NCBI GenBank assembly: GCA_944336125.1
Contig: CALVLA010000003.1
Location: forward strand, 62,001 to 126,000
Source: an uncultured Clostridia bacterium
GTDB lineage: Bacteria > Bacillota > Clostridia > Christensenellales > CAG-314
Length of the DNA stretch: 64,000 nucleotides
Direction: 5' to 3'
The translations under genes were made by a program, and so were the position numbers. Below the pieces are notes generated by a model. The model saw only the letters and a program-made list of their open reading frames with translations. It did no database searches and had not been told where the DNA came from. Positions 16,516 to 20,695 of the stretch are shown in pieces (the stretch's first letter is position 1; each line of letters opens with the position of its first letter).

Positions 16516-17154
16516 ATGGACAAAAAGAAATTTATCATAGGATCTCTTTTGAGATCTGTTCCGTTTTTAATTTTGCTTGTAGTGACTTTGGTCATGAAGT
16601 TTTCGGGGTACGCGGCTGACGATTGGTGGGGCTGGTATCTCATGTACCTATTGATTTTTGCGGCTCTCATTTATTTCGGACTGTTTTTCGTGCGCAACGG
16701 CAAGGCCTTGGTAATTGAAAGTGTCATGGAAAAAATGAGATTTAATTCGTCAAAAGCCTTTTTGGAAAAATGGGACGCAGAGGGATACGACAAACAAAGC
16801 GTTTTGAATTACGTTTATCAAAGCGAGCATGACATGGACACTACCATGGCTTTTCATGAAAACGACGTAACCGTAAAAAGAGTAGTGCGTGACATGAACG
16901 GTGACGTTACCGGTGAAACGGAAGAAAAAACCTATGTCTACTCCGACGTAAAATCCTTGGCGGTAGTTGACATAGAGGGGATGGGAAGTGTTCACATTGA
17001 ATTTGAATTTTCTGACGGACAAAGCACTTTCGCTTATTTTGACGTAGATCTTGCAAAGTTTATGACTGAAAAAACAGGACTTGAACTTAAAAACATTTTG
17101 CAGCTGCAAAACCACGCGCGACAGCTCGTCGAAAGCAAAACTAAAAACAAATAA
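16516..17154 (+). CDS. Membrane protein of unknown function
   Basis: This is a 212-residue protein with two membrane helices near the N-terminus (about 10-28 and 38-58), the second following 'DDWWGWYLMYLL'. The soluble C-terminal half is acidic and beta-rich with repeated 'V..DMNGDVTGETEEKTYVYSDV' strands. I recognise no family. AAGGAG precedes the ATG. It is the last gene of the deaminase-radical SAM-chromate transporter run and is followed by a strong terminator. Confidence 0.7.
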   Translation: MDKKKFIIGSLLRSVPFLILLVVTLVMKFSGYAADDWWGWYLMYLLIFAALIYFGLFFVRNGKALVIESVMEKMRFNSSKAFLEKWDAEGYDKQSVLNYVYQSEHDMDTTMAFHENDVTVKRVVRDMNGDVTGETEEKTYVYSDVKSLAVVDIEGMGSVHIEFEFSDGQSTFAYFDVDLAKFMTEKTGLELKNILQLQNHARQLVESKTKNK

Positions 17155-17210: not shown

Positions 17211-17960
17211 CTAAATATGTTTGACTTTAGACAAAAATTCTTTAAGGCGAGGGGACTTCGGATTGTCGAAAAATTCGTCAGGCGTGTTTTGTTCTTCCAC
17301 GACGCCTTCGTCCATAAACATTACGCGAGTGGCTACCCGTTTTGCAAAGGACATTTCGTGAGTGACGACTATCATTGTCATACCCGTTTCGGCAAGTGCC
17401 TGCATTACGTTCAAAACTTCGCCTACCATTTCAGGGTCAAGCGCGCTTGTAGGTTCGTCGAAAAGTATTACTTCCGGCTCCATGTTGAGAGCGCGTACTA
17501 TTGCGACCCTTTGTTTTTGTCCGCCTGAAAGTTTGTTCGGGTACTCGTTTGCTTTTTCCACCAAATCAACCTTCTTTAAAAGTTCCAGCGCGTCCGCCTC
17601 CGCTTGTTCCTTTGTTTTAAGCTTAAGCTGAACAGGAGCGAGCGTCATATTTTGCATGACAGTCAAATGGGGGAACAGGTTGAAGTGCTGAAACACCATA
17701 CCCATTTTTTGCCTTACTTTTGTTATGTCGGTATTTTTATCAGTCAAGTCTACGTCGTTAAAATAGATATGTCCCTTTGTAGGAATTTCCATAAAGTTCA
17801 GACATCTCAAAAAGGTGCTTTTTCCGCTTCCCGAAGGACCTACGATAACGATTTTTTCGCCTTTATAGATGTTTTCGTTTATGCCTTTGAGAACATGAAG
17901 CTCACCGAAGTTTTTTTCAAGATTTTCGATTTTTAAAATCGGTTTTTTAGCGTTGTCCAC
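17211..17960 (-). CDS. Polar amino-acid ABC transporter ATPase
   Basis: This is a 249-residue ATPase of the GlnQ/HisP type. It has Walker [10 protein letters not shown] near residue 40, a Q-loop, the signature LSGGQKQR, Walker B with '[14 protein letters not shown]' and a switch His in 'VVTHEM'. It energises import of an amino acid. The start is a GTG at 17960, chosen for GGAGG upstream. It overlaps the end of the permease gene by 14 bases, so it is translated from the same mRNA. Third gene of a binding protein-permease-ATPase operon. Confidence 0.94.
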
Positions 17961-18648
17961 GTGCGAGCCTCCTTTCTACTTTTCTTAAAATTAACGTAAG
18001 TATTGTTATCAAAAGCAAATAAATAATTGCAGATATTATAAGCGGCACAAATGCGTCAAGCGTTCTCGATTGGATTTTGTATGCTGCGAAAGTTATGTCG
18101 AGAATTGCTATGTAACCCATAACCGAAGTTTCCTTTACAAGTGCGATAAATTCATTGCAAAGGGCAGGTAACGAGGTTTTTAATCCTTGAGGCACGATAA
18201 TTTTTGCCATTGTCTGTTTCGCGTTTAATCCGAGACTCAATCCTGCTTCGAGCTGTCCGTGGTCTACGGCTTCAAGGCCGCCGCGGAATAGTTCTGCAAC
18301 GTATGCGGCAGAGTTAAGTCCGAAAGTAATGATTGCGACTATAATTCCGTTAGGTATGAAAACGAGTACTACAAAGTACATTATCATAAGCTGCAAAACG
18401 ACAGGGGTTCCGCGGATAATATATATGTAGGCGTCGCAAATCGCTTTTAAAATTTTTAATCTTCCGAATTTTTTGTTTACGTAAAGTACAAGTGCTATAA
18501 GTAATCCCAGTATCAACCCTACGATTATTGCGCCGAGTGACGTGAGTATTGTATTGAAAAAACCTTCGATATAATACTTATACCTATCGTCTTTTATCAG
18601 CGTGTCGTAAAGCTGTTCGCCAAGGGTTTTTGCAAGAAACATATTCAT
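17947..18648 (-). CDS. Polar amino-acid ABC transporter permease
   Basis: This is a 233-residue inner-membrane subunit of the HisM/GlnP family with about five helices. The EAA-type loop is visible as '[28 protein letters not shown]'-like sequence at about residues 135-160, and '[20 protein letters not shown]' marks an early helix. It presumably works as a homodimer with the adjacent ATPase. It is separated from the binding-protein gene by about 80 bases containing a stable hairpin. Confidence 0.93.
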
Positions 18649-18728: not shown

Positions 18729-19574
18729 TTATTTTGCCGATTTGGCAACCAAAGAAATTGCAGGAACGCTGTCGAGAACAATTGCTTTGATTGTACCTTT
18801 TTTGAGGTCTTCGAAAGCAACCGGAGCGTTTTTATATTCTTTCAAAGCTGCGCCGCTGTCTTTAAGTACACCTTCGCGGATTTCTTTGTCTACGAGAAGA
18901 GCACCTGTAGTGCCTGTTTGTGCGCCGATTGCAAGACCTTTCAAATCTTCAAGAGATTTGATTTCGGAGTCTTTAGCGCAAACGATATATTGTGTGGAAG
19001 TGAAGTAAGTGTCGGAGAAATCCATGGATTGTTTACGTTCGTCAGTAGCGGTAAAACCTGCCGCAATTACGTCCGCCCTCGAGAAAATCGAAGCTGTAAG
19101 GGATTCGAAGTTTACGTCGATGATTTCAAGTTTTTTGCCGAGGTTTTTTGCAACCTGACCCATAATAGCAACGTCAACACCTACAATCTGTTCACCGTCG
19201 ATAAATTCAAACGGAGCAAAACCTGATTCGGTAGCCATGATTATAGAGGAAGAAGCGTTTTCGTCACCTTTGAGGTAAACGGTGAAAGGTGCTTTTGCTT
19301 CATCGTTTTCTTCATAAACGTCCTGATAGTAGTCAACCAACTGGTCAATTTTGTTTTTGCCTTGTTCGCCTGCAGTCCAATCAGCGATGACTTTGTTGAT
19401 TTCAGCCAAAAGATCTGCGTCTTGTCCTTTTTCTACCGCAATGCCGTATGCTTCGACATCTGCGCCTACGATTTGAATTGCTTTGGCTTCAAAAGTGTTT
19501 CCGCAGCCGACCAACCCGAATACTGCCGTGAGTGTCATTACGGCAACGAGCATCATTTTCCAAAACTTTTTCAT
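18729..19574 (-). CDS. Amino-acid ABC transporter binding lipoprotein, apparently circularly permuted
   Basis: This is a 281-residue lipoprotein (lipobox LVGC, Cys24) whose gene leads the amino-acid ABC operon. Residues about 110-281 match a family 3 solute-binding protein from its normal beginning ('IIMATESGFAPFEFIDGE', 'DERKQSMDFSDTYF', 'SLEDLKGLAIGAQTGTTG') to the strand 'IKAIVLDSVPAISLVAK', and then stop. The part that normally follows ('...VEAYGIAVEKGQDADLLAEI', terminal helix) is found instead at residues 30-75, ahead of the domain. So the order of segments is permuted. The ATG at 19574 is chosen for GGAGG upstream and for the signal peptide. Ligand: probably a polar amino acid. Confidence 0.88.
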   Translation of the reverse strand: MKKFWKMMLVAVMTLTAVFGLVGCGNTFEAKAIQIVGADVEAYGIAVEKGQDADLLAEINKVIADWTAGEQGKNKIDQLVDYYQDVYEENDEAKAPFTVYLKGDENASSSIIMATESGFAPFEFIDGEQIVGVDVAIMGQVAKNLGKKLEIIDVNFESLTASIFSRADVIAAGFTATDERKQSMDFSDTYFTSTQYIVCAKDSEIKSLEDLKGLAIGAQTGTTGALLVDKEIREGVLKDSGAALKEYKNAPVAFEDLKKGTIKAIVLDSVPAISLVAKSAK

Positions 19575-19607
19575 ATCTTTGCCTCCTGATTTTGTAAAGA
19601 AAAATTG

Positions 19608-19792: not shown

Positions 19793-19821
19793 TTTACAAA
19801 TATTTTACCAGGTGTTAAAAT
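19793..19821 (+). promoter_or_regulatory. Promoter of the DUF4438 gene
   Basis: TTTACA (19793-19798) and TAAAAT (19816-19821) are separated by 17 bases. The -10 box covers an ATG at 19820, which therefore cannot be the start codon; AAAGGAG at 19827-19833 serves the ATG at 19844. Confidence 0.65.
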
Positions 19822-19843
19822 GAAAAAAAAGGAGCTGATTTTT

Positions 19844-20695
19844 ATGATTAAAACAAATAAAGACAAACTGGTAAAACAATCCGCTTTGGGAGCAATTCAT
19901 CACCCTACGATGAAAAGTGCGACCAAAATCGCTCACGATTCCTCAATATGGGCAGTGCCTGCCGTCGGAGGTATTTGTTACAACGTTGAAGTGGGGGACA
20001 GTGTTTTCGGACTTGCCGGCGACCACATAGAACCCGGTGTTTCAATTAAAAACAATGACGTTACAGAAAACCTTGCTTTGAACTTTTTGTCATGCATAGG
20101 AAACGAGGCTACTGTTATCTCGGGTGACGCAAAGGGGGCAAAGGGAATTGTCACGGGAACTCACGGTGGCATAGAACACGTTTTGGTTTACTTTAAAAAG
20201 GAAGACATGGAAAACATGGCTCCTTGCGACAAGGTTCTTGTCAAAACTTTGGGTCAGGGACTTAAAATAGAGGGACATGAAAACGTCAAGGTCATGAACA
20301 TAGATCCGTGGCTTTTGGAAAAACTCGGCATTGAGGAAAGAAACGGCAAACTTTTCTTAAAAGTGGCTGCGGTTGTTCCCGCTCATCTCATGGGAAGCGG
20401 AATAGGAAGCGCAAACGCCTACACGGGGGATTACGACATAATGACCATGGACAAAAACGAGCTTAAAGCAAACGGGCTTGAAGATTTGCGTTTCGGCGAC
20501 GTAGTCGCTCTTCAAGACTGCGACACTACTAACGGCAGATGTTTCAGAAAAGGCGCCGTAACAATCGGCGTCGTAGTTCACAGTGATTGTGTGCTTAGCG
20601 GACACGGTCCCGGCGTAACTACTATTTTGACAAGTCAGACTTCTGAAATCGAGTTTGAGTTGGACAAAACCCAAAACATCAAAAAATATTTTTGA
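19844..20695 (+). CDS. DUF4438 family protein
   Basis: This 283-residue protein matches the uncharacterised DUF4438 family known from Thermotogae and Clostridia. Conserved-looking segments include 'VGGICYNVEVGDSVFGLAGDHIEPG', 'GIVTGTHGGIEHV', 'GSGIGSANAYTGDYDIM', 'LRFGDVVALQD' and 'HSDCVLSGHGPGVT'. The glycine- and His/Asp-rich loops suggest a small-molecule or metal site. It is cytosolic, with no signal peptide. No reaction is known. It lies between the ABC importer and an FGGY kinase but on its own promoter, so no pathway can be assigned. Confidence 0.85.
   Translation: MIKTNKDKLVKQSALGAIHHPTMKSATKIAHDSSIWAVPAVGGICYNVEVGDSVFGLAGDHIEPGVSIKNNDVTENLALNFLSCIGNEATVISGDAKGAKGIVTGTHGGIEHVLVYFKKEDMENMAPCDKVLVKTLGQGLKIEGHENVKVMNIDPWLLEKLGIEERNGKLFLKVAAVVPAHLMGSGIGSANAYTGDYDIMTMDKNELKANGLEDLRFGDVVALQDCDTTNGRCFRKGAVTIGVVVHSDCVLSGHGPGVTTILTSQTSEIEFELDKTQNIKKYF

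Follow-up and report, generated by a model that had tools for sequence, protein, structure and literature searches.

A naturally occurring circular permutation in a family 3 solute-binding lipoprotein of an uncultured Clostridia bacterium

TpMglB-2 (Tp0684) of Treponema pallidum is a circularly permuted type I glucose-binding lipoprotein (PMC4990184). The first strands of its N-lobe are relocated to the C-terminus of a cluster B sugar-binding fold and a fourth crossing is added, and the protein retains ligand binding and conformational change despite the permutation (PMC4990184). Its authors put forward the designation ‘Type Ic / Cluster Bc’ and raised a possible connection with membrane tethering; this kind of permutation is also found in Gram-positive bacteria (PMC4990184).

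P0001, encoded in the 64,000 nt stretch of DNA analyzed here (the window), is like TpMglB-2 in that both are natural circular permutations of a lipid-anchored ABC binding protein. Unlike TpMglB-2, it carries the C-terminal part at the front, appears to have had a crossing removed, and belongs to a type II amino-acid family in which several segment orders coexist. TpMglB-2 is the nearest described case and is of a different fold class; the leading Foldseek and sequence matches of P0001 are all to type II amino-acid solute-binding proteins (SBPs) and not to the type I (cluster B) fold. A search of the freely accessible literature found no described permutation in the type II amino-acid SBP family, and the preliminary description of this locus was likewise aware of no natural case in SBP_bac_3. 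By the TpMglB-2 scheme, ‘Type IIc / Cluster Fc’ would be a fitting name for permuted family 3 SBPs.

Canonical SBP_bac_3 proteins have the order D1a-D2-D1b, where D1a is the stretch of lobe 1 between the N-terminus and hinge 1, D2 is lobe 2 and D1b is the C-terminal segment that completes lobe 1. As read from its sequence, the P0001 chain is signal-D1b-linker-D1a-D2, with new termini at hinge 2 (Table 1). We assign a probability of about 90% to the reading that P0001 is a functional polar-amino-acid-binding family 3 lipoprotein (type II, cluster F) that has undergone a natural circular permutation. The preliminary description gave the same position, strand and sequence and called the protein a permutation rather than a duplication since each part is present once. 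The single copies are confirmed, and P0001 is classed as a circularly permuted SBP_bac_3 variant. The relocated piece does lie behind the lipobox, as described; however its extent, given earlier as residues 30–75, is larger and includes the terminal helix. The linker is also shorter than the approximately 35 residues first estimated. Block profiles for D1a and D2 score 107 and 79 bits, respectively. The lipobox LVGC, the expected export signal of the family, ends in Cys24, and this cysteine is invariant across 34 proteins with the P0001 order.

Table 1. Positions of the P0001 gene, its parts and its operon partners in the window
Feature	Position (nt)	Strand	Detail	Basis
Permuted SBP_bac_3 lipoprotein gene P0001	18729..19574	-	281 aa, stop included	
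Shine-Dalgarno, upstream of the P0001 ATG	19582..19587	-	AGGAGG	sequence
Signal peptide and lipobox cysteine	19503..19574	-	residues 1–24, LVGC	sequence
D1b, relocated canonical C-terminal segment	19308..19493	-	residues 28–89	profile, model, PDB alignments
Linker, old C-terminus to old N-terminus	19248..19307	-	residues 90–109	model confidence, dN/dS
D1a, canonical N-part of lobe 1 to hinge 1	18975..19247	-	residues 110–200	PF00497, block profile
D2, lobe 2, now C-terminal	18732..18974	-	residues 201–281	block profile
Permease	17947..18648	-	BPD_transp_1 (PF00528)	Pfam
ATPase	17211..17960	-	ABC_tran (PF00005)	Pfam

The PF00497 model matches P0001 at residues 111–242 with 80.4 bits (gathering cut-off 26.4), and the match breaks off at position 104 of the 132 in the profile. 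When P0001 is rotated to the canonical order the score rises to 86.6 bits and the match reaches position 118 of 132. The N-terminal segment alone gives no match to PF00497, a model of 132 positions that leaves most of the segment beyond its reach. A profile was therefore built from 85 canonical C-terminal segments only, with proteins of the window genus left out. This profile matches P0001 at residues 38–89 with 28.4 bits, and the best score among 1000 shuffles is 9.2 bits; elsewhere in P0001 it finds no match above noise. In the ortholog from G001, another genome of the genus, it matches residues 39–88 with 30.5 bits, and in other proteins of the same order the D1b scores are far higher than in P0001. 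Alignments to single structures are weak: residues 33–66 align with the C-terminal segment of AncQR (4zv1 183–216), and D1b by itself aligns with positions 418–455 of GlnPQ SBD2. Pairwise comparison of D1b with GlnBP alone is also weak (3 of 2000 shuffles are equally good), so most weight belongs to the profile test. The preliminary description would have abandoned the permutation if its residues 30–75 failed to align with the C-terminal part of SBP_bac_3; they lie largely within the profile match. The strand-strand-helix-helix segment that ends lobe 1 is thus present in P0001.

Structure prediction, which had been proposed as a check, gives a confident fold. The AlphaFold2 model of P0001, made with an alignment that includes 33 permuted relatives, has a pLDDT of 88.2 and a pTM of 0.81. 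The relocated segment is modeled as strands at residues 30–34 and 41–48 and helices at residues 53–66 and 75–89 (block pLDDT 77–96), which is the secondary structure expected of the C-terminus of a GlnH-like protein. Confidence dips at residues 81–100, around the linker. Foldseek places T. maritima ArgBP and AncQR first among PDB matches, with alignments of about 174 sequential columns that cover the D1a-D2 part only; without rotation the query-normalised TM to 4zv1 is about 0.55. D1b would pack against D1a to complete a canonical cleft. A search for an experimental structure of any permuted member found none.

With GlnH, HisJ, T. maritima ArgBP and AncQR, P0001 shares the sequence family, the predicted bilobed fold and the ligand-anchoring residues. 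GlnBP residues G68, T70, R75, F13 and F50 align to G173, T175, R180, F119 and F156 of P0001. Residues that would anchor the alpha-carboxylate and alpha-amino groups are G173, T175 and R180, from this alignment, and D268, placed at the GlnBP D157 position by inspection; R180 and D268 are invariant in the 34 proteins and T175 is nearly so. GlnBP K115 is replaced by Q219, and GlnBP D157 falls one residue off D268 in the pairwise alignment. Family membership points to a polar amino acid as the ligand. This amino acid would most likely sit in the cleft, bound through the carboxylate and amino contacts that are usual in the family, and pass to the adjacent permease and ATPase.

The proposed architecture is as follows. 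The old termini, both in lobe 1, would be bridged by the linker, and the chain would be opened just ahead of hinge strand 2. Lobe 1 (D1b, linker and D1a) and lobe 2 (D2) would each be contiguous, and hinge strand 1 would be the sole covalent crossing, unlike the two crossings of canonical SBP_bac_3 proteins. Opening and closing may thus proceed about a single covalent hinge. The lipid anchor would enter on the hinge side of lobe 1.

P0001 is the first gene of an SBP-permease-ATPase operon on one strand, and like GlnH-type SBP_bac_3 proteins (type II, cluster F) it is a lipoprotein accompanied by a PAAT permease and ATPase. The G001 ortholog is 66% identical and has the same segment order. Comparison of the two gives a dN/dS of about 0.18 over the mature protein, with 0.18 for D1b, 0.16 for D1a, 0.15 for D2 and 0.33 for the linker, which is the least constrained part. 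The relocated segment is as constrained as the remainder, so P0001 is almost certainly a functional protein. The earlier view that the gene leads a complete ABC operon and is probably functional is upheld by the Pfam matches and by the purifying selection. Together with the profile match, the predicted fold and the ortholog, these also back the circular permutation itself. Two neighbors of the operon may be mentioned. A 212 aa membrane protein (window positions 16516–17154) adjoins it and keeps its position in G002 and G003; it gives no Pfam match at E 1e-4. A DUF4438 protein (window positions 19820–20695) is the divergent neighbor of the SBP gene in four of four genus genomes and is 77%–79% conserved.

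The locus is conserved in these four genomes with the order RND/MMPL, TetR, FGGY kinase, DUF4438, SBP, permease and ATPase, followed by genes that include chromate transporters, radical SAM and amidohydrolase. This order is complete in G002 and G003 and is present in the available part of G001. The SBP at this locus is permuted in G000 and G001 and canonical in G002 and G003. The window permease is 86% identical to that of G001, 53% to that of G002 and 49% to that of G003; identity of the ATPase across the genus is 78%–84%, and that of the ATPase and flanking genes overall is about 60%–84%. The permease tree also sets the permuted pair apart from the canonical pair. The SBP and permease genes either diverged jointly at this locus or were replaced through exchange of an SBP-permease cassette. 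Within window positions 17211–18648, permease divergence tracks that of the SBP, and a cassette exchange is possible.

Homologs with the same order, which the preliminary description had proposed to look for, are present in dozens of Clostridia genomes in addition to the G001 ortholog. In what follows, type A is D1b-D1a-D2 (the P0001 order) and type B is D2-D1b-D1a. Full-length collinear matches to the type A profile occur in at least 38 of 396 genomes of the order, and matches that cover only D1b-linker-D1a occur in at least about 30 genomes of the order among the matches listed. Open reading frames of the order that were classified with separate D1a, D2 and D1b profiles comprise 38 of type A, 21 of type B, 37 canonical and one with another cut. 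Type B is found in about 30 genomes overall and another cut in one genome. Outside the order, type A is found in about 35 genomes of the class sample, where one family has it in nearly all sampled members; the single-contig genomes G585, G613 and G732 are among these genomes. Sampled genomes of the phylum that lie outside the class showed no full-length type A and few type B-like matches. Named genome records, from gut and rumen Clostridia assemblies, add 17 further type A proteins. The SBP of G220 (L050) is identical to that of L103. The preliminary description did not foresee this scale: the arrangement is common in Clostridia, has arisen repeatedly, and occurs beside type B proteins and fused arrays.

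Other explanations of P0001 have been considered. P0001 could be a deletion remnant of a tandem two-domain SBP of the GlnPQ type that is heading for loss. The D1b-linker-D1a junction is indeed also found between SBD1 and SBD2 of GlnPQ (6h30) and in Clostridial arrays, and the route at the DNA level probably passed through a tandem state. GlnPQ however has two complete canonical domains fused to its permease, whereas P0001 is a single unfused unit with the permease in a separate open reading frame. A decaying remnant is hard to reconcile with the low dN/dS across the mature protein, an intact ortholog and the maintenance of the protein across dozens of species, in some cases throughout entire genera, and we consider this explanation very improbable. 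The N-terminal segment could also have nothing to do with D1b and be helical material inserted into a truncated SBP, or it could stem from an assembly error or a frameshift, as its lack of recognition by Pfam alone might imply. The canonical-only profile match far above the shuffles, the much stronger D1b scores in other type A proteins, the in-frame ortholog and the many independent assemblies, some of them single-contig, leave practically nothing of this possibility. Artefact, chance and a truncated SBP are ruled out by the ortholog, the spread, the profile test against shuffles and the dN/dS value.

An explanation of another kind is a domain-swapped oligomer, in which D1b completes lobe 1 of a neighboring chain and the permutation serves assembly rather than a monomeric cleft. 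T. maritima ArgBP, which ranks first among the structural matches of P0001, is known to swap its C-terminal helix, and the type A cut leaves one of two hinge strands free. However a linker of about 20 residues should suffice for closure within a single molecule, and the monomer is modeled with confidence. A swapped assembly thus seems improbable, and the functional permuted SBP is retained as the preferred reading.

The cuts in the chain fall at or near hinges, the positions of which we take from knowledge of GlnBP and alignment to it. Type A chains open immediately before hinge strand 2. Type B chains open in two ways: between hinge 1 and the first lobe 2 helix (L010, L075, L077 and L078), or past that helix, which is then left at the C-terminus (L061 and others). 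In both types the lobes would be contiguous and one of two covalent crossings would be lost. A type B protein gives an AlphaFold2 model with a pLDDT of 89.7 and a pTM of 0.78; Foldseek, which aligns sequentially only, does not align this model to canonical proteins and returns low-TM PDB matches to other folds with two lobes, in a shifted register. L010, reported as a 531 aa frame, was considered as a tandem SBP and rejected; it is a 273 aa type B protein.

Several variants are of separate interest. L088 (G150; L217 10845–11900) opens within lobe 1 after the first strand and keeps both hinges. Its C-terminal end is ...QLVVLTNVPFSPFEYLA and it lies within a complete operon. It is seen in one genome, and a search of the family of G150 for a second member of this type D gave none. 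L013 (784–2340) is a type A SBP joined directly to a permease in a 524 aa chain, where lobe 2 and not lobe 1 is membrane-tethered. Long, charged, lineage-specific insertions after Walker A are present in the ATPases of several such operons, at L217 8975–10072 (about 100 residues), L014 2–577 and L018 3–719.

SBP trees were made from rotated sequences by quick searches with SH-aLRT support, and origin counts from them are approximate. The trees require at least about 14 changes of segment order, and the well-supported branches alone require six to seven changes for type A. AU tests reject a single clade for type A (p 2e-55) and for type B (p 1e-67). The permease tree, from an independent gene, gives about 18 changes of order. 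Since order may travel with SBP-permease cassettes, which have likely been exchanged between lineages, and the trees are quick, the exact counts are approximate; the recurrence of permutation should be trustworthy where the counts are not. Most of the proteins that group with P0001 are canonical, and this clade is far removed from the large type A clade; the P0001 permutation thus probably took place independently of the one in that clade. Two canonical proteins (L055 1306–2142 and L083 1957–2784) are nested inside a type A clade. Their C-terminal tails (FFDGTADYTYTNPAR) are similar to the type A linker (FFDGNAEFTYTNPS), which suggests a reversion from type A to the canonical order.

The most likely origin of such permutants would be a duplication in tandem, or a fusion, of SBP genes, after which the first copy lost its front and the second its end. 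Four open reading frames in Ruminococcus-like and other Clostridia assemblies carry D2-D1b-D1a units fused to a PAAT permease in chains of 774–1034 aa, three units in L108 (1333–4434) and L109 (688–3729) and two in L116 (1685–4006) and L141 (2988–5318). The D1b-D1a linker keeps its length in these arrays, and the exact point at hinge 1 where one unit passes into the next differs. G038 has two adjoining canonical SBP genes, 57% identical with 322 bases between them, whose proteins form the sister branch of a type A pair in the tree. The type A profile also aligns unbroken over the SBD1-SBD2 junction of GlnPQ. The arrays, the gene pair and this junction are consistent with permutation by duplication. 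For the Clostridia family 3 SBPs as a whole we regard as fairly likely a recurrent and reversible permutation, in which cuts are preferred at hinges, three rotations coexist, the arrays are likely intermediates and at least one reversal appears to have taken place.

To our knowledge, a natural circular permutation is typically one ancient event that separates distant proteins. The recurrence and the coexistence of all rotations are the more unusual part of the finding, beyond P0001 itself; SBPs that are closely related and presumably do the same work occur in each rotation of the three segments. Species of one genus differ at the same locus, thus the steps of permutation and the role of duplication become testable with natural sequences. 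Effects of the loss of one of two hinge crossings on opening, closing, lipid anchoring and docking likewise become testable. The permutation also explains why HMM annotation labels such proteins SBPs that begin with an unusual segment and lack a C-terminus, and the natural cuts are ready permutation sites for biosensors made from binding proteins.
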